A DNA stretch of 64,000 nucleotides from Herbiconiux flava. Lineage in GTDB: Bacteria; Actinomycetota; Actinomycetes; Actinomycetales; Microbacteriaceae. The stretch covers positions 3,534,001 through 3,598,000 of the forward strand of contig NZ_JACCBM010000001.1 in NCBI RefSeq assembly GCF_013409865.1. The letters are read 5' to 3'. Below, in pieces: positions 31,295 through 41,811 of the stretch (position 1 is the stretch's first letter; each line of letters opens with the position of its first letter). Both the position numbers and the translations under genes were made by a program. The notes under the pieces are model-generated. The model did no database searches and had not been told where the DNA came from. It saw nothing but the letters and a program-made list of their open reading frames with translations.

Positions 31295-31891
31295 ATGTCG
31301 ACGACGATGCCAGCCCTGACCGATCTCGAGTGGAGCCGCGGGCCCGGGGAGGCGGCCGTCGACGGCGGCACCCTCACCCTGACCGCCGCGGCCGGCACCG
31401 ACTGGACCAACGACGCCGGCGGAGCCGAGCCCCAGCACCGCGCCACGAGCCTCGGCTTCGTGCCCGAGGGCGACTTCCGGCTCTCGGCCCGGGTGCGCGT
31501 CGAGGGCGAGCGCACCACCTTCGACGCCGGCGTGCTCGCCGTCTGGATCGACGAGGCGCACTGGGCCAAGATCTGCTTCGAGTGGTCGCCGCAGGGCACC
31601 GCGATGGTGGTCAGCGTCGTGACGAACGACTTCTCCGACGACGTGAACTCGACCGACGTCGACGGCGACTCCGTGTTCCTCCGGGTGTCACGGGTGGGGC
31701 CGGCGTGGGCGTTCCACTCCTCGTCCGACGGGGCCGAGTGGCGTTTCGTGCGCGTGTTCCGGCTGGCGGGCGAGGGGCCGGTGCACGTCGGCTTCCTGGC
31801 CCAGGCGCCGATGGGCGAGAGCTGCACGGCGGTGTTCGACGAGATCGCGTTCGTGCCCGAGACGCTCGACGAGCTGCGCGACGGGTCGTAG
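31295..31891 (+). CDS. DUF1349 domain protein (concanavalin-like fold)
   Basis: 198 residues from ATG 31295. The opening DLEWSRGPGEAAVDGGTLTL, then AGTDWTNDAGG, VEGERTTFDAGVLAVWIDEA and WAFHSSSDGAEWRFVRVFRL, VHVGFLAQAPMGESCTAVFD are characteristic of DUF1349, a beta-sandwich lectin/glucanase-like domain related to the yeast Regulation of enolase 1 protein. It probably binds carbohydrate, but no enzyme activity is established for bacterial members. It ends 57 bases before the PPK2 start. Confidence 0.85.
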   Translation: MSTTMPALTDLEWSRGPGEAAVDGGTLTLTAAAGTDWTNDAGGAEPQHRATSLGFVPEGDFRLSARVRVEGERTTFDAGVLAVWIDEAHWAKICFEWSPQGTAMVVSVVTNDFSDDVNSTDVDGDSVFLRVSRVGPAWAFHSSSDGAEWRFVRVFRLAGEGPVHVGFLAQAPMGESCTAVFDEIAFVPETLDELRDGS

Positions 31892-31947
31892 CGGCCACGA
31901 CCCCCGCCGTTCATCCGCTGTTCGCCGACGCCCGCTACGGTGCCGAC

Positions 31948-32913
31948 GTGACGCTGTTCAACGGCTGGGCCGTTCCCGCCGACCTCGACGACCTGCTCAA
32001 GCACTCGGTGCTCGACGACGATGACGACGACCCGGTGCTCCTCGGCACCGACGGCGCCCCCGTCGACACCTGGCGCGAGGGCTACCCCTACGACGAGCGC
32101 CTCGACCGCGCCGACTACGAGGCGGGCAAGCGCCTGCTGCAGATCGAGCTGCTGAAGCTGCAGAACTGGATCAAGCTGCACGGCCGCCGCCTCGTGATCG
32201 TGTTCGAGGGCCGCGACGCCGCCGGCAAGGGCGGCACGATCAAGCGCTTCACCGAGCACCTGAACCCGCGCGGCGCCCGGGTCGTGGCGCTCGAGAAGCC
32301 GACGGAGCGGGAGTCGTCGCAGTGGTACTTCCAGCGTTACGTGCAGCACCTGCCGGCCGCCGGCGAGATGGTGCTGTTCGACCGCTCCTGGTACAACCGG
32401 GCGGGCGTCGAGCGCGTGATGGGCTTCTGCACCGACGAGCAGTACGACGAGTTCATGCGCCAGGCCCCGCTGTTCGAGAGCATGCTCACGGGCGACGGCA
32501 TCGATCTCGTGAAGCTCTGGTTCTCGGTCTCGGCCGACGAGCAGCGCACCCGCTTCGCCATCCGCATGGTCGACCCGGTGCGGCAGTGGAAGCTCTCGCC
32601 GATGGACCTCGAGTCGCTCGACAAGTGGCAGCGCTACACCGCCGCGAAGGAGGCCATGTTCGCCGCCACCGACACCGCCGACGCGCCCTGGACGGTGGTC
32701 AAGAGCAACGACAAGAAGCGCGCCAGGCTCGAGGCGATGCGGCACGTGCTGAGCCTCTACGACTACGACGGCAAGGACGAGTCGATCGTGGGGCGGCCCG
32801 ATCCGCTGATCGTGGGGTCGGCCGCCGACGTCTACGAACGCGGCGAGAACGAGGCGGCGACGCCGGCACCGGGCGACGGCGCGGATGCGACGCCGGGCGG
32901 GCCGTCGTGGTGA
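31948..32913 (+). CDS. ppk2: Polyphosphate kinase 2
   Basis: 321 residues from GTG 31948, PPK2 class I size. It transfers phosphate between polyphosphate and nucleoside diphosphates. Walker A is IVFEGRDAAGKGGTIKRFTE (about 88-107), followed by QWYFQRYVQHLP, Walker B is VLFDRSWYNRAGVERVMGF (about 140-158), and the lid/active-site block is WKLSPMDLESLDKWQRYT (about 212-229). The C-terminus is a loose acidic and Ala-rich tail. Its stop overlaps the GTG of a phosphopantetheinyl transferase (GTGA). Confidence 0.93.
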   Translation: MTLFNGWAVPADLDDLLKHSVLDDDDDDPVLLGTDGAPVDTWREGYPYDERLDRADYEAGKRLLQIELLKLQNWIKLHGRRLVIVFEGRDAAGKGGTIKRFTEHLNPRGARVVALEKPTERESSQWYFQRYVQHLPAAGEMVLFDRSWYNRAGVERVMGFCTDEQYDEFMRQAPLFESMLTGDGIDLVKLWFSVSADEQRTRFAIRMVDPVRQWKLSPMDLESLDKWQRYTAAKEAMFAATDTADAPWTVVKSNDKKRARLEAMRHVLSLYDYDGKDESIVGRPDPLIVGSAADVYERGENEAATPAPGDGADATPGGPSW

Positions 32914-33797: not shown

Positions 33798-35108
33798 TCA
33801 GGGCAGGGGCGGGAGGGGCGTGGCGTGCAGCCACGCCGCGAACAGGGGCGCCAGGGGGCGGCCCGCGACCGCGGCCGCGTGCGCCGTGAAGGCCGCGGTG
33901 TCGGCGCTGCCGTGGCGGTGGGCCGCCGTCCATGTGCGCAGCACCTCGAAGAACGCCGCGTCGCCGATCGTCAGGCGCAGGGCGTGCAGCGTCAGCGCCC
34001 CGCGCTTGTAGACGCGGTCGTCGAACATCGCGACCGGTCCGGGGTCGGCGACCACGAGGTCCTGCGGGGCGGCCGCGAGCATCCGGTGGTGCTCGCGGGC
34101 CAGCGCATCCGCCGAGGGGCCGCCCCGCTCCTCCGACCACAGCCACTCGGCGTAGCAGGCGAAGCCCTCGTTCAGCCAGATGTCGCGCCAGGCCTTCACA
34201 CCCACGCTGTTGCCGAACCACTGGTGCGCGAGCTCGTGCGCGATCAGCCGGTCGCTGCCGTGCCGACCGTCGACGTGGTTCGCCCCGAAGATCGCCATCG
34301 CCTGCGCCTCGAGCGGGATCTCGAGCTCGTCCTCGGTCACGACCACGGCGTAGCGGGAGAACGGGTACGGCCCGAACACCCGCGCGAAGAAGCCGATCAT
34401 GTCGGGCAGCCGGGCGAAGTCCTCGTCGACCCGCGCCCTGAGCTCGGCCGGGTGGTACCGGTCGACGGGCACGGGGCCCCGGCTCGACCGCACCGTGTAG
34501 TGCCCGATCTGCACGGTCGCGAGGTAGGCCGAGGTCGGAGCATCCTGTTCGTAGAGCCAGCTGCTGCGGCCGCTGCGACTGGTGCGCTCGATGAGCCGCC
34601 CGCTCGCGGCCACGGTGTAGCCCTCCTCCACGGCGACCCGGATGCGGTAGGCCGCCTTGTCCTCCGGCCGGTCGTTGCAGGGGAACCACGTCGACGAGCC
34701 GATCGGCTGCGACGCCGTGAGCACGCCGTCGGCGAGCTCCTCCCAGCCGAGCGGCCCCCAGGTGCTGCGGCGCGGACCCGGCCGACCGCCGTACTCGACC
34801 CGCACCGTGAAGCGCTGCCCGGCGGGGATCGGTGAGGGCGGCCGAACCGACAGCACGTGCGAGCTCTGCGACACCCGGGCAGGGCGGGCGCCGTCGACCT
34901 TCACCTTCGAGGCCTTGAGCTTGGAGAGCCCGAGGTCGATGCGGTCGAGGTCGACCACCGCCACGGCCGTGATCACGGCGACCCCGTCGAGCCGGTTCGT
35001 CTCGACCCGGTAGTCGAGGTCGAGGTCGTAGAGCTCGACCCGGTACGACCAGGTGCCGACGCCCGGCGTGTAGGGGTCGCCCGAGAAGGCGACGCCGCGG
35101 CCGGTCAC
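33798..35108 (-). CDS. M1 family zinc aminopeptidase, coupled to the Pls-type synthetase
   Basis: 436 residues from GTG 35106-35108, overlapping the synthetase stop by 4 bases. The beta-saddle N-domain is followed by the thermolysin-like catalytic domain: the zinc site HELAHQWFGN (about 289-298) and IWLNEGFACYAEWLW (third ligand Glu about 310). It lacks the long helical C-terminal domain of large M1 enzymes and has no signal peptide. The exopeptidase motif GAMEN is not obvious; DELEIPLEAQAMAIFG occupies that position. By coupling, it probably trims or recycles the product of the upstream NRPS, as aminopeptidase-type degrading enzymes do for epsilon-poly-lysine (inference). Confidence 0.88.
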   Translation of the reverse strand: MTGRGVAFSGDPYTPGVGTWSYRVELYDLDLDYRVETNRLDGVAVITAVAVVDLDRIDLGLSKLKASKVKVDGARPARVSQSSHVLSVRPPSPIPAGQRFTVRVEYGGRPGPRRSTWGPLGWEELADGVLTASQPIGSSTWFPCNDRPEDKAAYRIRVAVEEGYTVAASGRLIERTSRSGRSSWLYEQDAPTSAYLATVQIGHYTVRSSRGPVPVDRYHPAELRARVDEDFARLPDMIGFFARVFGPYPFSRYAVVVTEDELEIPLEAQAMAIFGANHVDGRHGSDRLIAHELAHQWFGNSVGVKAWRDIWLNEGFACYAEWLWSEERGGPSADALAREHHRMLAAAPQDLVVADPGPVAMFDDRVYKRGALTLHALRLTIGDAAFFEVLRTWTAAHRHGSADTAAFTAHAAAVAGRPLAPLFAAWLHATPLPPLP

Positions 35109-38100
35109 GAGCCGCCCTGCGCCGAGAGCGAGTCAGATCCAGGCCCAGACCCAGACCCAGGCGCAGCCGGCGCCGCGCCGGCACCCCGCCCCGCCAGTGC
35201 CGCCCACCGGTACTCGGCCGTCCGCACCTCGCGCCAGGGCCCGATCGGGTTCCCGCTCCAGCGGCTGCCGGCCGGCACGGTGTCGCCGCGCATCACGAGC
35301 GACGCGGGCCCCACGGTGCCGTCGGCGGCGATCCGCGCCGCCGGCAGGATGACGCTGTGCGGGCCGAGGGTCGCCCCCCGGTCGAGGTCAACGGTATCGA
35401 GGCTCATGATCCGATCATGGAACAGATGCGTCTGAACCACACATCCCCGGTTCACCGTCGACGCATCGGCGAGGGTGACGAGGTCGGCCTCGGGCAGCCA
35501 GTACGTCTCGCACCAGACGCCCTCGCCGATCCGCGCGCCGAGGCTCCGCAGCCACCAGACCAGCGCGGGGGTTCCGGTCGCGGCCTGCGCGAACCAGGGC
35601 GCCGCGACCATCTCGGTGAAGGTGTCGGCGACCTCGCTGCGCCAGACGAAGCTCGACCAGAGCGGATGCTCGCCCCGCCGGATCCGCCCGATCAGAACCC
35701 ATTTCGCCGCCGTGCTGACCCCCGCGGCCACCGCTCCGGCGACCAGCAGCACGACCCCGCTCAGCACCACCGCGAGCCACAGCCCCACGGAGGCGAGCGC
35801 GGCGAGCGCGAACACGGCCGCCAGCCCGATCGCGCAGGTGACGATCACGGGCACCACTCGCAGCAGCTCACACAGGATGCGCGCGACCCGCAGCCGCGCG
35901 GGCGGCGCGAAGGTGCGGCTGAGATCGCCCTCCGCGGCCGTGCGGCGCAGCCGCACCGGCGGCGAGCCGAGCCACGACGAGCCGTTCTTGGCCTTCCGCG
36001 GCGCCGACGAGAGCACGGCGACGAGGCCGTCGCGCGGCACCCGGTGCCCCGGCGCCGCCATGCCGGAGTTGCCGAGGAAGGCGCGTTCGCCGATCTCGGC
36101 GCGGGCCACGTGCATCCAGCCCCCGCCGAGCTCGTAGGAGGCCACGAGGGTGTCGTCGGCGAGGAACGCCCCGTCGCGCACCGTCGTCATCGCCGGGATC
36201 AGCAGCACCGTCGACGCCTCGACGTCCCGCCCGATGCGCGCACCGAGCAGCCGCAGCCAGACAGGGGTGAACAGCCCCGAGTAGAGCGGGAAGAGCAGCG
36301 TGCGGGCGAGGTCGAGCAGTCGCTCGGTCGACCAGATCTGCCAGCCCACGCGCCCGCGCACCGCGTGCACGCCCTCGGCGACCCCGAGGCCGAGCAGCCG
36401 CGTGATGCCGACGACGAGCACGGCCAGCACGACGCCGGCGACGAGGGTGCCGGGCACCACCGCGGCGAGGCTCCGGATGGCCGCGTCGCCGAGACCGCCC
36501 GCTCCCCGAGCGGCCGCCAGCACCACGAGGGCCCCGGCCGCGAAGGCGACGACGGGCACCAGCGCGAGCACCAGCGACGAGACGCCGTAGGCGATCAGCC
36601 ACGCGGGCCGGCGGGCCGGCCGCTCCTCGGGCCACCAGCCACGCGCCTTCCCGACCCGGGCGGCGGGCGAGCCGGCCCAGCGCTGACCCGACGGCACCCG
36701 GCCGAACACCGACGAGCCCGGCTCGATCTCGGCCCGCTTGCCGATGCGGGTGCCGGGCAGCAGCGTGCTGCGGGCCCCGATGCTGGATCCGGCCCCGATG
36801 CGCACCGCGCCGACGCGGAGCACGTCGCCGTCGACCCAGTACCCCGAGAGGTCGACCTCGGGCTCGACGGCGGCGCCCCGGCCGATGGTGAGGAAGCCGG
36901 TGACGGGCGGCAGGGCGTGCAGGTCGACGTCGTCGGCGATGCGGGCGCCGAGCGCACGGGCGTAGAGCGCGATCCAGGGAGCCCCGGCGAGGCTGACGGC
37001 CCCCACCTGATGGGCGATCTGCTCCGCGAGCCAGAGCCGCAGGTGCCAGGAGCCGCCCCGGGGATGATCACCCGGCTGAAGCCCGCGCAGCAGCAGCCGT
37101 GACGCCACGACCGAGATGCCCATCCGGCCGAACGGCGTGGCGAACAGCGCGAGCCCGACGATCAGCGCCCAGAGCGGCACGGTCGGCAGCCAGTCGAAGC
37201 CACCGAACGGCACCAGGATCGCGGAGGCCGTGAAGAGGTAGACCAGCCAGCGCAGCCCGGCGAGCACGAACAACGGGATGCCGAGCACGGTCTGCAGCAC
37301 CTGCATGCGGCGCGGGGTGGGCGCGACCGGCTCGCGGCCCGGCCCGGCCGGGGTACCCGCGGCATCCGCTTCGTCGGAGCGCGAGCGCAGCTCGTCGGCC
37401 ATCGCACCGAGCCGCGGGTGCGCGTAGACGTCGGCGACGGTGAACTCGGGGTCGATCTCGCGCACTCCGGCGACGAGCTGCGCCGCGGCCAGCGAGCCGC
37501 CGCCGAGGTCGAAGAAGTTCGACCGCTCGTCGGTGACGGATGCTCCGAGCACACCCGTCCACAGGGCCGCGAGGCGCGCCGTGAAGGGGTCGTCGATCCC
37601 GGGGGCGTCTCCCGCGCCGATCGGCGCGGCACCCGGGAGCGGCCACGGCAGCGCCTTCTTGTCGACCTTGCCCGAGACCCGAACGGGCAGCTCGTCGAGC
37701 ACGGCGATCAGCGGCACGAGCGCCGCGGGCAGCTCCTCGCGCAGGCGCGCGACGGCGGCCTCGCGGTCGAAACCCGGGGCCACGACGTAGCCGACGAGCA
37801 TCGCGGTGCCCGCCGCCGTCTGCTGCACGGTGACGGCGGCGCCCGCGACCCCCGGCAGCGCCTGCAGCGCGGCCTCGATCTCGCCGAGCTCGATCCGCCG
37901 GCCGCCGACCTTCACCTGGTCGTCGGCCCGGCCCTGGAAGACGAGCCCCTCGGGGTCGTAGCGCACGAGGTCGCCCGAGCGGTAGGCGCGCTCCCAGCCG
38001 AGCGACGGCATCGGCGCGTACTTCTCGGCGTCCTTGGCGGGGTCGAGGTAGCGGGCGAGCCCCACTCCCCCGATGATCAGCTCTCCGGATGCTCCGGGCG

Positions 38101-39151
38101 CGACCGGCTCGCCGTTCTCGTTCACCACCGCCAGCTCCCAGCCGTCCAGCGGCAGACCGATCCGCACGGGGCCGTCGCCGCCGAGAGGGGCGGCGCAGGC
38201 GACGACGGTGGCCTCGGTGGGGCCGTAGGTGTTCCAGACCTCGCGGCCCGGGGTGGCGAGGCGCTGGCCGAGCTCGGCCGGTACCGCCTCGCCGCCGAAG
38301 ATCAGCAGGCGCACGTTCTCGAGCGACTCCGCCGGCCAGAGTGCGGCGAGCGTCGGAACGGTCGAGACGACCGAGATGCCGCGGGCGGTGAGCCAGGGCC
38401 CGAGGTCCATACCGCTGCGGACGAGCGAGCGCGGGGCGGGCACGAGGCAGGCGCCGTGCGCCCAGGCGAGCCACATCTCCTCGCAGGAGGCGTCGAACGC
38501 CACCGACAGCCCCGCCAGCACCCGGTCGCCCGGGCCGAGCGGCTCGTCGACGACGAACAGGCGCGACTCGGCGTCGACGAAGGCCGCGGCCGAGCGGTGG
38601 CTGACGGCGACGCCCTTCGGGGTGCCGGTCGATCCCGAGGTGAAGATGATCCAGGCGTCGTCGGCCGGGGTGGGCGGCGAGAGCACGGGCAGGCTCGCCG
38701 TGCTCGGGTGGGGGTCCCGGGCATCCGCGTCGACGAGCGCGACCTCGGCGGCGGGCGCCGTGCGGGGGCGGTAGCGCAGCGAGCCGGTGAGCACCCCCAC
38801 CACGTCGGCCTCGCCGAAGACCAGCTCGGCGCGCTCCTCGGGGTCGTCGACGTCGACCGGCACGTACGCCGCCCCCGCCGCGAGCACCGCGAGGATGCCG
38901 ACGTACAGCTCGCGGTGGCCCGAGGCCATCCGCACGCCCACCCGGTCACCCCGCCGCACACCGGCGGCGTGCAGCTCGGCCGCGACGGAGATCACCCGCG
39001 CCATCAGCTCGCGGTAGCTCAGCGCGCCGTCGCCGTCGTCGAGGGCCGAGGCCTCGGGATGCGCGGCGACGGTCTCCCGCAGGATGTCGACGAGCGTGCG
39101 GGCCGGAGCGGCCAGCGCGCTCCGGTCGAGCGTGGGCTGCGCGGTGGTCAT
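35105..39151 (-). CDS. Pls/PosA-type membrane NRPS, poly-(basic amino acid) synthetase-like
   Basis: 1348 residues, close to the roughly 1300 of epsilon-poly-lysine synthetase. Domains: adenylation about 15-500 (IIFTSGSTGTPKGVAVSHRS, VWNTYGPTEATVVAC, YRSGDLVRYDPEGLVFQGRA, RVSGKVDKKALP); carrier about 530-605 (NFFDLGGGSLAAAQLV, Ser about 554); then three membrane-pair plus hexapeptide-repeat units (TM about 615-690, 850-920 and 1094-1160; acyltransferase-like LbH repeats about 737-830, 970-1067 and 1205-1300). The C-terminal modules of such enzymes join carrier-bound monomers into 25-35-mers. No condensation or thioesterase domain of classical type is present. Followed by the coupled M1 peptidase. 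Confidence 0.92.
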   Translation of the reverse strand: MTTAQPTLDRSALAAPARTLVDILRETVAAHPEASALDDGDGALSYRELMARVISVAAELHAAGVRRGDRVGVRMASGHRELYVGILAVLAAGAAYVPVDVDDPEERAELVFGEADVVGVLTGSLRYRPRTAPAAEVALVDADARDPHPSTASLPVLSPPTPADDAWIIFTSGSTGTPKGVAVSHRSAAAFVDAESRLFVVDEPLGPGDRVLAGLSVAFDASCEEMWLAWAHGACLVPAPRSLVRSGMDLGPWLTARGISVVSTVPTLAALWPAESLENVRLLIFGGEAVPAELGQRLATPGREVWNTYGPTEATVVACAAPLGGDGPVRIGLPLDGWELAVVNENGEPVAPGASGELIIGGVGLARYLDPAKDAEKYAPMPSLGWERAYRSGDLVRYDPEGLVFQGRADDQVKVGGRRIELGEIEAALQALPGVAGAAVTVQQTAAGTAMLVGYVVAPGFDREAAVARLREELPAALVPLIAVLDELPVRVSGKVDKKALPWPLPGAAPIGAGDAPGIDDPFTARLAALWTGVLGASVTDERSNFFDLGGGSLAAAQLVAGVREIDPEFTVADVYAHPRLGAMADELRSRSDEADAAGTPAGPGREPVAPTPRRMQVLQTVLGIPLFVLAGLRWLVYLFTASAILVPFGGFDWLPTVPLWALIVGLALFATPFGRMGISVVASRLLLRGLQPGDHPRGGSWHLRLWLAEQIAHQVGAVSLAGAPWIALYARALGARIADDVDLHALPPVTGFLTIGRGAAVEPEVDLSGYWVDGDVLRVGAVRIGAGSSIGARSTLLPGTRIGKRAEIEPGSSVFGRVPSGQRWAGSPAARVGKARGWWPEERPARRPAWLIAYGVSSLVLALVPVVAFAAGALVVLAAARGAGGLGDAAIRSLAAVVPGTLVAGVVLAVLVVGITRLLGLGVAEGVHAVRGRVGWQIWSTERLLDLARTLLFPLYSGLFTPVWLRLLGARIGRDVEASTVLLIPAMTTVRDGAFLADDTLVASYELGGGWMHVARAEIGERAFLGNSGMAAPGHRVPRDGLVAVLSSAPRKAKNGSSWLGSPPVRLRRTAAEGDLSRTFAPPARLRVARILCELLRVVPVIVTCAIGLAAVFALAALASVGLWLAVVLSGVVLLVAGAVAAGVSTAAKWVLIGRIRRGEHPLWSSFVWRSEVADTFTEMVAAPWFAQAATGTPALVWWLRSLGARIGEGVWCETYWLPEADLVTLADASTVNRGCVVQTHLFHDRIMSLDTVDLDRGATLGPHSVILPAARIAADGTVGPASLVMRGDTVPAGSRWSGNPIGPWREVRTAEYRWAALAGRGAGAAPAAPGSGSGPGSDSLSAQGGS

Positions 39152-39209: not shown

Positions 39210-40781
39210 TCAGCTGCCGAAGGCCCAGGGTTCACGGTCGCCGCGGAGGCGCGAGGCGAGGGCGGTCGCCTGCTCGTCGGTGAGCGAGGCGACGTAGTCC
39301 AGGATGCCGCGGGCCCGCCCGAAGCGCGCCAGGGCCACGGGGTCGGTCGTCGGGCGGCCGGCACCCCGACCCCCGGCACCCGGGGCGTCGGCGTCCTCGG
39401 GCAGCCACTCGGGAGCATCCGCCCGCAACCGGAAGTACCCGTCGGTCGCGAGCTCCACGAAGTCGAGCAGCTTCTGCGGAGCGCGGGCACCGTCGCGCGG
39501 GTCGTCGAGCCAGGAGTCGAGCTCGGTGACGAGGGTGTCGAGCACCCGCGCCTGGCCGCGCTGGTAGGTGGCGAAGTCGGGGCGGTCGATCACGAAGCGG
39601 GTGTGCACGAACTTCAGCACGGTCACGTCGTGCCAGGCGTCGGGCAGGAGGGACACATGGCCCGAGCGCACGTTCGGGTCGGCGAGCACGAGCACCGAGC
39701 GCTGCAGGCGGCCGATCCACGACGACACGAACGACTCGATCGCCCGCTCGGTCTGGCTGGAGCCGTCGAAGGGCACGGCCAGGAGGCCCTCCACGAGCTC
39801 GGTCGCGACGCGCTGCACCGAGGCGCGGAAGGTCTCGTCGCTGGCGATCCAGGGGTCGCGGGAGACGATGCGGCGGCGCAGCAGCTCGAGGGAGTGCCCG
39901 GGCGTGCGGTTCCACAGCTCGTCGGCGTCGAGGGCGGCGAGCGCCGTCTGATCGCGCAGGAAGGTGCGGAACTCCACGGCGACTGCGGCCTGCTGCAGCA
40001 CCCCGGCGCGGTAGAAGTCGTCGAGGTCGTGCAAGGAGTAGGCGATGTCGTCGGCGACGTCCATCACCGAGCACTCGACCGTCTGCTGCCAGGGAGCGAT
40101 CGCGTCGAAGCCACGGCGGGCGTCGAGCAGGTCGGCGAGGTCGAGGCTGTAGGCCGAGAACTTCGGCGGGGCGGTCTCCCAGCGACTCACGGTCGATCCG
40201 CGCGGCAGGAGAGTGGGATCGTCGGAGTCGATCTCGGGTCGGCAGAGGGTGCGGCCCCACGGGTACTTCAGCACCGCGGCGCGGGAGGCGGCGGTGAGGT
40301 TCAGCCCCTCCTCGACGGTCTCGCAGACGTCGAGCACCGAGAGGATGCGGAACGACTGCGCGTTGCCCTCGAAGCCCTCGGCCAGGCCGAGGCGGTCGCG
40401 GGCGAGCCGGTCGAGCACCTGCTCACCGAGGTGCCCGAACGGCGGGTGGCCGAGGTCATGGGCGCTGGCGGCCGCCTGCACCACGACCGGGTCGCAGCCG
40501 CCGAGGCGGTCGACGAGCTCGCGCTGGGCGGCATCCGTCGTGGTCAGCTGCATCGCGATGGCGCGGGCGACCGCGGTGACCTTGATCGAGTGGGTGAGCC
40601 GGTTGTGCACGACCTGGCCGACGCCCGACGGCGAGATGACCTGGGTCACGGCCGACAGCCGGGCGAAGTAGGGCGAGAAGCGGATGCGCTCGAGGTCGAC
40701 CCGGTACTCGGGGAACTCCTCGCCGGTGGCGAAGCGGTCGACGGGTTCGGCGATGCGTCGCCGGCGGCGGTTCTCGTCCAT
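39210..40781 (-). CDS. HD-domain deoxynucleoside triphosphate triphosphohydrolase-like protein
   Basis: 523 residues. The HD metal site is intact: TRLTH-type NRLTHSIKVTAVARAIA (about 59-75), SAHDLGHPPFGHLGEQVLDR (about 107-126) and VMDVADDIAYSLHDLDDFY (about 247-265). These are the family's H...HD...D residues that remove tripolyphosphate from dGTP or other dNTPs, limiting the nucleotide pool. A C-terminal extension beyond about 430 is low-complexity Gly/Ala. It is upstream of, and in the same direction as, the Pls-type gene, with 58 bases between. Confidence 0.88.
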   Translation of the reverse strand: MDENRRRRRIAEPVDRFATGEEFPEYRVDLERIRFSPYFARLSAVTQVISPSGVGQVVHNRLTHSIKVTAVARAIAMQLTTTDAAQRELVDRLGGCDPVVVQAAASAHDLGHPPFGHLGEQVLDRLARDRLGLAEGFEGNAQSFRILSVLDVCETVEEGLNLTAASRAAVLKYPWGRTLCRPEIDSDDPTLLPRGSTVSRWETAPPKFSAYSLDLADLLDARRGFDAIAPWQQTVECSVMDVADDIAYSLHDLDDFYRAGVLQQAAVAVEFRTFLRDQTALAALDADELWNRTPGHSLELLRRRIVSRDPWIASDETFRASVQRVATELVEGLLAVPFDGSSQTERAIESFVSSWIGRLQRSVLVLADPNVRSGHVSLLPDAWHDVTVLKFVHTRFVIDRPDFATYQRGQARVLDTLVTELDSWLDDPRDGARAPQKLLDFVELATDGYFRLRADAPEWLPEDADAPGAGGRGAGRPTTDPVALARFGRARGILDYVASLTDEQATALASRLRGDREPWAFGS

Positions 40782-40790
40782 CCGCCCAGC

Positions 40791-40856
40791 CTATTGCGCG
40801 GGCCCGATCCGGAAGCGCGGGCGCTATTGCGCGGGCCGGATCGGGCCGCGCGGGCG
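40791..40856. repeat. Tandem 33-base repeat
   Basis: Two adjacent 33-base copies (40791-40823 and 40824-40856), each starting CTATTGCGCGGGCC and ending GCGCGGGCG, agree at 29 of 33 positions. They sit between the divergent dGTPase-like and DUF4397 genes, where promoters for both must lie. Confidence 0.7.
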
Positions 40857-40965
40857 CCGTCCGGAAAAAGATCGCCCGAGGTGCATCCGAATCGCAGCGA
40901 CCGCGGGAAGAGCCTTTCGTAAGCAGTTTTCTCTCGGCCCCCCGGGGCTCGACCAGGAGGTACTC

Positions 40966-41811
40966 ATGCAGAAGAAGAAGATCCCCGCCGCCATCGCTGC
41001 CGGCGCGCTCATCGCCCTCGGCGGTTCGCTCGCCGGAGCACTGCCCGCCTCGGCCGCCGACGGCGACGCCAAGCTGTCGGTGCTGCACGCCGTCCCCGGC
41101 CTCACCGTCGACGTCTACGTCAACGACGCGCTGACGCTCGACGACTTCACCCCGGGCAGCCTCGCGGGCCCGCTCGACCTGCCGGCCGGCACCTACTCCG
41201 TGGCCATCACGGCGGCGGACGCGGCCGACGCCTCCGCCCCCGCCATCGGCCCGGTCGACCTGCAGCTGGCCGCCGGCGGCAACTACACCGCGGTCGCGCA
41301 CCTCACCACGGCCGGTGAGCCGACGGCGACGCTCTACACCAACGACACCTTGACGCTCGCCGCGGGCGAGGGCCGACTGACCGTGCGTCACGACGCCGCG
41401 GCTCCCGCGGTCGACGTGCTCGCGGGCGGCAGCGCCGTGGTGAGCAACCTGTCGAACCCCGACGAGAAGGTGCTGAACCTCCCGGCCGGCACCGTCTCGG
41501 CCTCGGTCGCGGCGACCGGCACCACCACCCCCGTGATCGGCCCGGCCGACGTGAACGTCGCTGAAGGCGTCAACACGATCGTCTACGCCTGGGGCAGCCT
41601 GGAGGACGGCAACCTCGCGCTGGCCGTGCAGACCATCGACGGCCTGCACTCCGACCCGAGCGGCGTACCCGCCGGATCGGCCGGTCTCGTGGCCACCAAC
41701 CGCCCGGCCGACCCGACCGGGCTCGCGATCGGCGCATCCGCTCTGCTGGTGCTCGCCGCCGGCGCGGGTGTCGCGCTCCGCCGCCGCAGCGTCGCGAAGG
41801 CAGCGCGCTGA
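40966..41811 (+). CDS. DUF4397 domain surface protein
   Basis: 281 residues from ATG 40966, with CAGGAGG upstream. A Sec signal peptide (MQKKKIPAAIAAGALIALGG, cleavage near ALPASAA) is followed by two DUF4397 units (LSVLHAVPGLTVDVYVNDAL and LTVRHDAAAPAVDVLAGGSA, each with a PAGTYSV or PAGTVSA strand). The C-terminus ends in a hydrophobic helix and RRRSVAKAAR, like a sorting signal, but no LPxTG is visible before it. It is probably an exported, membrane-held wall protein. The downstream class F sortase and sigma/anti-sigma pair form its usual genomic company. Confidence 0.85.
   Translation: MQKKKIPAAIAAGALIALGGSLAGALPASAADGDAKLSVLHAVPGLTVDVYVNDALTLDDFTPGSLAGPLDLPAGTYSVAITAADAADASAPAIGPVDLQLAAGGNYTAVAHLTTAGEPTATLYTNDTLTLAAGEGRLTVRHDAAAPAVDVLAGGSAVVSNLSNPDEKVLNLPAGTVSASVAATGTTTPVIGPADVNVAEGVNTIVYAWGSLEDGNLALAVQTIDGLHSDPSGVPAGSAGLVATNRPADPTGLAIGASALLVLAAGAGVALRRRSVAKAAR

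Follow-up and report, generated by a model that had tools for sequence, protein, structure and literature searches.

In this analysis of a 64,000-nucleotide stretch of Herbiconiux flava contig NZ_JACCBM010000001.1 (hereafter the window), we examined two overlapping genes that encode a membrane-bound polymer synthetase (Pls) and a zinc peptidase of the M1 family. These genes probably constitute a pls-pldII operon for the synthesis of epsilon-poly-L-lysine, a natural preservative, of the type that holds the majority among the actinobacterial loci studied, with an M1 peptidase that most likely resides inside the cell. The idea put forward in the preliminary description of this DNA, that one transcript serves both synthesis and degradation, is sound and already published. 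The pairing itself is not new, and the gene pair alone is ordinary because such a coupling of synthesis and degradation is known. What this analysis adds, and what was absent from that description, is a split of the linked peptidases according to their export signal. The three features at the center of the argument are as follows.

33798..35108, minus strand: gene for a PldII-type two-domain M1 zinc peptidase of 436 residues, with a GTG start, the families PF17900 and PF01433, and no predicted signal peptide.

35105..39151, minus strand: pls-type gene encoding 1348 residues from an ATG start, a predicted single-module membrane nonribosomal peptide synthetase (NRPS; A-T-C1-C2-C3), recognized from its open reading frame (ORF), TIGR02353 and a match to Protein Data Bank (PDB) entry 7wew.

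35105..35108, minus strand: the 4-base overlap GTGA, read in the sequence, of which GTG is the M1 start and TGA the pls stop.

Counts of linked peptidases refer to 94 linked Pls/M1 pairs, among 107 Pls rows overall. Export signals were called on the 94 M1 proteins with a simple hydropathy and charge rule (score >1.5) plus inspection by eye. The rule gave eight proteins. One of them (L038, score 1.54) was removed by hand, since it shows no typical signal and its score derives from an alternative start located 25 bases beyond the pls stop, and another (L078, 1.47, with TRRAFVTG) was added, such that the total stays at eight; L049, which scores 1.38 without the charge rule, was counted as signal-less. 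By these calls, a signal resembling those of twin-arginine translocation (Tat) is present in eight of the 94 linked M1 proteins, and the other 86, including that of the window, have no export signal. Nor was a signal found in a further 12 M1 proteins from a draw of genomes across the phylum and four from genomes holding both types. The window M1 starts only 12 residues ahead of a conserved YTPG stretch. A longer form carrying a signal was considered and ruled out: no start codon precedes position 35108 in this frame, and the whole open frame comes to only 444 residues.

The split by signal coincides with a division in the phylogenies. The Pls tree was built from 101 of the 107 rows (the fragments L055, L059, L062, L083, L105 and L109 were left out), and the M1 tree from 65 rows (54 of the 94 linked proteins and 11 unlinked ones), rooted by hand on L172. 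The trees derive from one FastTree run and one “quick” run, and L054 and L100 form long branches in them. The Streptomyces albulus sequence is absent from the set, its nearest stand-in being L060 from Streptomyces sp. MspMP-M5. All 84 Pls rows with a signal-less M1 fall on one side of a branch with a support of 100; on the other side are the eight Tat rows and nine rows without an M1. In the M1 tree, the 54 linked proteins and one unlinked protein from Kocuria (L145) form a single clade (support 100) that excludes the 10 other unlinked paralogues, and within this clade the Tat rows (support 98) separate from the signal-less rows with L145 (support 95). Inspected by eye, the unlinked M1 proteins have signal-like N-termini in nine of the ten loci examined. 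The host also encodes a second M1 protein (L140:1455-3323; 622 residues, 37% identity to the linked M1) whose N-terminus is long and hydrophobic; it is apparently exported and could correspond to Pld, the unlinked enzyme of S. albulus. Because these other M1 proteins carry signal-like N-termini, the signal was probably lost in the majority clade. Judging from these sequences, the common arrangement seems to combine a peptidase in the cytoplasm with an adjacent synthetase that has its catalytic parts in the same compartment.

These observations have to be set against what is known of S. albulus. S. albulus PldII is reported to lie outside the membrane (PMC9223678, PMC9205021), and export is common in the wider M1 family, as the unlinked loci and the second M1 of the host illustrate. 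The window M1 might thus act outside the cell, like S. albulus PldII, after leaving it without a recognisable signal, and there would then be no difference in compartment. We judge this unlikely. The short distance from the start codon to YTPG, the lack of any longer start, the 86 signal-less linked proteins and the position of 84 of these on one side of the Pls branch all argue against it, as does the fact that the host already owns an exported-looking M1. Full-text searches of open-licence papers listed no discussion of a signal peptide in, or of the compartment of, the linked M1 proteins, and no signal peptide was found to be discussed in PMC8117764 or PMC9223678, although the original PldII paper may contain such a discussion.

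The second pillar of the assignment is the synthetase. TIGR02353 matches it with 711.6 bits (cut-off 423.1) over model positions 1-695 of 695, and the S. albulus epsilon-polylysine synthetase (PDB 7wew) matches it with 618.6 bits. Its domains were located as follows.

37667..39079, minus strand: adenylation domain, residues 25-495, found by PF00501 (residues 25-367, 219 bits) and PF13193.

37391..37576, minus strand: carrier (thiolation) domain, residues 526-587, found by PF00550, with the phosphopantetheine-bearing Ser553 in DLGGGSL.

35243..37300, minus strand: C-terminal polymerising region, residues 618-1303, found by TIGR02353, with helix pairs and beta-helix units, three of each.

With one adenylation domain, one carrier domain and a match above the TIGR02353 cut-off, the protein belongs, by its sequence, to the polymer synthetases of the Pls/PosA type. 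No condensation or thioesterase family was found in it by the Pfam scan or among the 25 NCBIfam families listed out of 105; the preliminary description, which had likewise counted 1348 residues, one adenylation domain and one carrier domain and no condensation or thioesterase domain, is borne out by the ORF, Pfam and NCBIfam. That description had also spoken of three units of membrane segment plus hexapeptide repeat, which is right in substance. Pfam finds a single hexapeptide stretch (residues 783-815); family-averaged hydropathy gives three hydrophobic regions of hairpin size, and a predicted model of residues 606-1312 (mean predicted local distance difference test score, pLDDT, 88.7) has three units of paired helices plus a beta-helix. 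The protein is thus predicted to contain six membrane helices in three pairs, each pair followed by a hexapeptide-type unit. Foldseek matched the C-terminal model only locally, to hexapeptide acetyltransferases (whole-model template-modeling (TM) scores of 0.09-0.14), and we therefore draw no catalytic mechanism from these matches. Ser553 is kept in at least 99% of the 101 Pls rows. The highest conservation in the C-terminal region, seen in the conservation profile and in the invariant columns of 51 rows, is at VVQTHLFHDR in C3 (residues 1238-1247), a stretch to which we assign no catalytic role. In PHROGs, two families of unknown function match the adenylation part, and nothing matches the M1 protein.

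The substrate code of the synthetase is DAESIGTVVK (D220, A221, E224, S263, I284, G286, T308, V316, V317 and K495), and both the alignment and the computed code give the same residue as 7wew at all ten positions. In published comparisons, the second position is Ala in lysine enzymes, Met in the ornithine enzyme described in the same paper and Phe in diaminopropionate/diaminobutyrate enzymes, and Glu at the third position binds the side-chain amine (PMC10522769). Given the identity to 7wew, with Ala at the second position and Glu at the third, lysine is the expected monomer, and epsilon-linked polylysine the expected product. Another monomer was considered and rejected in view of the ten shared residues; placement in a clade making another product, which the preliminary description had named as grounds for abandoning its assignment, was thus not found, the adenylation code being that for lysine. 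The same code occurs in 103 of the 107 Pls rows. Among the remaining four, two are fragments without the region, L100 has one position changed, and L054 has the code DFEYNGTVTK and looks like a short-diamine type. L060, which also carries DAESIGTVVK, has an adenylation domain 92% identical to that of 7wew.

A shared code still leaves room for a product other than long epsilon-polylysine, e.g. a short oligolysine or a lysine-modified envelope component, that is processed by the M1 protein. The 84-row group is split from the S. albulus-type rows with a support of 100, and in four genomes (G064, G066, G067 and G069) an M1-less gene of the S. albulus type coexists with a Pls that has an M1, a hint that the two kinds are not interchangeable. 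On the other hand, the ten-residue code is the same on both sides of the branch (L100 being one position off), and the Pls of Corynebacterium variabile, whose sequence is not in the tree, gave 26-35-mers in Streptomyces coelicolor. We judge a different product quite unlikely.

The linkage of the two genes was surveyed in three samples. Eighty named loci, which are 80 of the 592 confirmed with 7wew as the query, lean towards lysine-type enzymes; 60 relatives and a phylum draw of 296 genomes were searched with the family model and are free of this lysine-query bias. An M1 gene adjoins pls in 69 of the 80 named loci. In three of the other 11 the sequence stops at a contig edge, and in eight the contig goes on. 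These eight encode lysine-code Pls proteins without a linked M1 (L066, L069, L070, L076, L089, L100 with its one changed position, L108 and L123); six of them are from Kitasatospora or Streptomyces, and some of the genomes also hold a Pls with M1. Among 29 stretches from the relatives, 25 have an M1 beside Pls, the exceptions being L054 with its other code, the low-scoring L057 and L058, which share a genome, and L059, a piece at the end of a contig whose genome also contains L055. Counted by genome, 26 of the 60 relatives have a TIGR02353 match over the cut-off, 26 have an M1 match of at least 440 bits (the next-best M1 reaches 268 bits), and 25 have both. The unmatched synthetase is in G046, which holds L054 and has no M1 of at least 440 bits; the unmatched M1 is in G008, where its neighbor is a fragment of a Pls gene at the end of a contig. 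M1 genes unlinked to pls in relatives, which the preliminary description had regarded as evidence against it, were thus not what the survey revealed.

In the phylum draw, 14 of the 296 genomes have a TIGR02353 match over the cut-off, and all 14, of which the host of the window is one, have a Pls with an adjoining M1 (in L183 the two are about 300 bases apart); in three of them (G041, G194 and G227) there is, in addition, an over-cut-off match that lacks an M1. One of 14 named control genomes, Corynebacterium glutamicum, exceeds the cut-off, and 13 of the 14 match at E ≤ 0.001; therefore, only the cut-off is informative. The pairing of Pls and M1 is not due to chance, since the M1 is linked in 69 of the 80 named loci and in all 14 over-cut-off genomes of the phylum draw. 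The M1 start codon is set for a 4-base overlap in 63 of the 94 linked pairs, and for a 1-base overlap in 14, four of these pairs offering both. Pls and M1 distances correlate with r = 0.91 over 92 loci, a figure that shared species history inflates. Five loci of the survey have a different layout: the TIGR02353 frames of L153, L158, L159, L186 and L187 span 860-919 codons, too few for a fused adenylation domain, and in four of the five an adjoining second frame matches the window adenylation part, with no M1 seen. These loci are perhaps a split-gene form of the synthetase.

That the M1 is an ordinary housekeeping aminopeptidase standing beside pls by accident is very hard to credit: M1 peptidases abound (at least 7986 proteins at E ≤ 0.001) and 4-base overlaps are frequent between adjoining bacterial genes, but in the 60 relatives an M1 of at least 440 bits occurs only beside a Pls, and the linked M1 proteins form one clade apart from 10 of the 11 unlinked ones, and an unrelated neighbor was rejected on these two grounds.

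The zinc site of the peptidase itself is intact. Two features of its active site were mapped.

34167..34238, minus strand: zinc site HELAH-X18-E, residues 291-314.

34308..34310, minus strand: Glu267, at the place of the motif Glu, kept in 94 of 94 linked M1 rows.

The residues of the zinc signature HEXXHX18E (His291, Glu292, His295 and Glu314) and Tyr367 are identical in all 94 linked rows. We take Glu267 to occupy the place of the Glu in the GAMEN exopeptidase motif. The next residue, 268, is Ala in 81 of the linked rows (the window among them), Ser in five and Asn in eight, the eight being the Tat rows. An Asn/Ala change here was considered as a mechanism and set aside; it tracks the clades among linked proteins, but unlinked M1 proteins vary at this position (Asn, Thr or Val). 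The model of the window M1 has a pLDDT of 95.8, and the closest of the M1 matches listed is 98% identical (Herbiconiux sp. VKM Ac-2851). Both ORFs and the GTGA were confirmed, as was the overlap of the pls stop with the start of a 436-residue M1 at 35105-35108 given in the preliminary description. With PldII, the protein shares the start/stop overlap with pls, a place in the S. albulus-type clade and an intact zinc site. Export is the feature that its sequence does not support, and it is thus classed as PldII-type (homologous and linked), not as PldII in the strict sense. Consensus scans for promoters and terminators gave no match.

How might the two proteins work together? Pls would activate L-lysine and load it onto Ser553. 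The membrane-bound C1-C3 region would then join lysine repeatedly onto the epsilon-amino end of the chain, as in the published account, in which a thioester-bound lysine is coupled to an epsilon-amino group, either that of a free lysine or that of the chain (PMC9205021). Because joining occurs at this group, growth would be at the amino end, which is where an aminopeptidase attacks; the M1 protein, translated from the overlapping start, would remove lysines from that growing end. The three helix pairs imply that all soluble parts of Pls lie on one side of the membrane, and we infer that this side is the cytoplasm, since the adenylation domain needs ATP. Given the predicted cytoplasmic location of these parts and an M1 without an export signal, the peptidase most likely works inside the cell. 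There it would destroy polymer that is retained in, or re-enters, the cytoplasm, and it could possibly oppose chain growth. The simplest purpose would be self-protection within the cell; chain editing is a bolder reading, and the published results on it pull both ways. Inactivation of pld and pldII is reported to have left 25-35-mers, repression of pldII to have given chains above 40 (PMC9223678), and chain-length diversity has been credited to the synthetase (PMC9205021).

Several points weigh against an intracellular peptidase that serves an active polylysine operon. The absence of a signal comes from a simple rule and inspection by eye rather than from a dedicated predictor, and non-classical export would be compatible with it. 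The eight loci that lack an M1 on a continuing contig mean that the peptidase is dispensable for some lysine-code Pls proteins. Accounts of how PldII cleaves diverge: it has been termed endo-type, yet is also said to cut residues one by one from the N-terminus (PMC9223678). Finally, C. variabile itself has no detectable polymer, and by analogy the operon of the window may be silent.

If the split in compartment is true, most of the examined actinobacterial pls operons differ from the model organism in the location of their peptidase. The split would bear on gaps named in PMC9205021, namely the working of the synthase and of the degrading enzyme and the control of chain length, and it might help to explain the lack of polymer in culture of a coryneform carrier (C. 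variabile). Further, the majority-type operon offers a test in a non-filamentous host. We tentatively raise the possibility, which we hold at less than even, that actinobacterial epsilon-polylysine systems are of two kinds. The S. albulus kind would ship its polymer out and degrade it outside, or would lack a coupled enzyme. In the majority kind, a cytoplasmic M1 made in step with the synthetase, and sharing with it both the side of the membrane and the chain end at which it acts, would be an internal antidote or a chain editor; the role of the polymer may then differ from that of a secreted preservative.

A dGTPase-like gene, dgt (TIGR01353; 39210-40781, minus strand), precedes pls on the same strand, with 58 bp between the two. 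Its membership of the operon as a constant component was rejected: of 110 rows, the arrangement is present in the window, in L039 (58 bp) and in L043 (118 bp), and absent from the remaining 107. A polyphosphate kinase 2 gene (31330-32913, plus strand) converges on the M1 gene; counting the window, seven rows have such a gene close to the operon and on the other strand. Also close by, and likewise on the other strand, is a gene for a DUF4397 protein (40684-41811, plus strand; 375 residues).

Four known systems place the operon in context. PosA, the delta-poly-L-ornithine synthetase of Acinetobacter baumannii, is of the TIGR02353 type like the window Pls, and its published model of three beta-helices over six helices (PMC10522769) agrees with our C-terminal model. 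In contrast to the window, PosA has the code DMEHNGTVSK and is described as a single-gene operon with no obvious co-transcribed neighbor (PMC10522769). The two-domain M1 peptidase of Deinococcus radiodurans (6a8z, 6koz) is the nearest fold to the window M1 and has the same layout (TM 0.88-0.91, about 30% identity), but differs around the motif Glu. C. variabile has the same pls-peptidase operon outside Streptomyces, and its product was proved heterologously, epsilon-polylysine being made on expression in S. coelicolor, whereas C. variabile itself gave no detectable polymer (PMC8117764). This host belongs to another family than that of the window, and the likeness is one of description, since its sequence is not in our trees. 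Microbacterium is also among the reported carriers of the operon (PMC8117764).

The closest parallel is the pls-pldII operon of S. albulus, in which pldII and pls are adjacent, overlap by 4 bp and form a single operon (PMC4361855); pldII is translationally coupled, 1404 bp long and encodes the major epsilon-polylysine-degrading enzyme, located outside the membrane (PMC9223678). The window shares its synthetase architecture, its lysine code, the peptidase gene directly downstream and the 4-base overlap. The L060 M1, at 467 residues, has the size expected of a 1404-bp pldII; between the window and L060, the Pls proteins are 55% and the M1 proteins 47% identical. The difference is in the peptidase: L060 and its kin have a Tat-like signal and Asn after the motif Glu, whereas in the window M1 the signal is missing and the residue is Ala.

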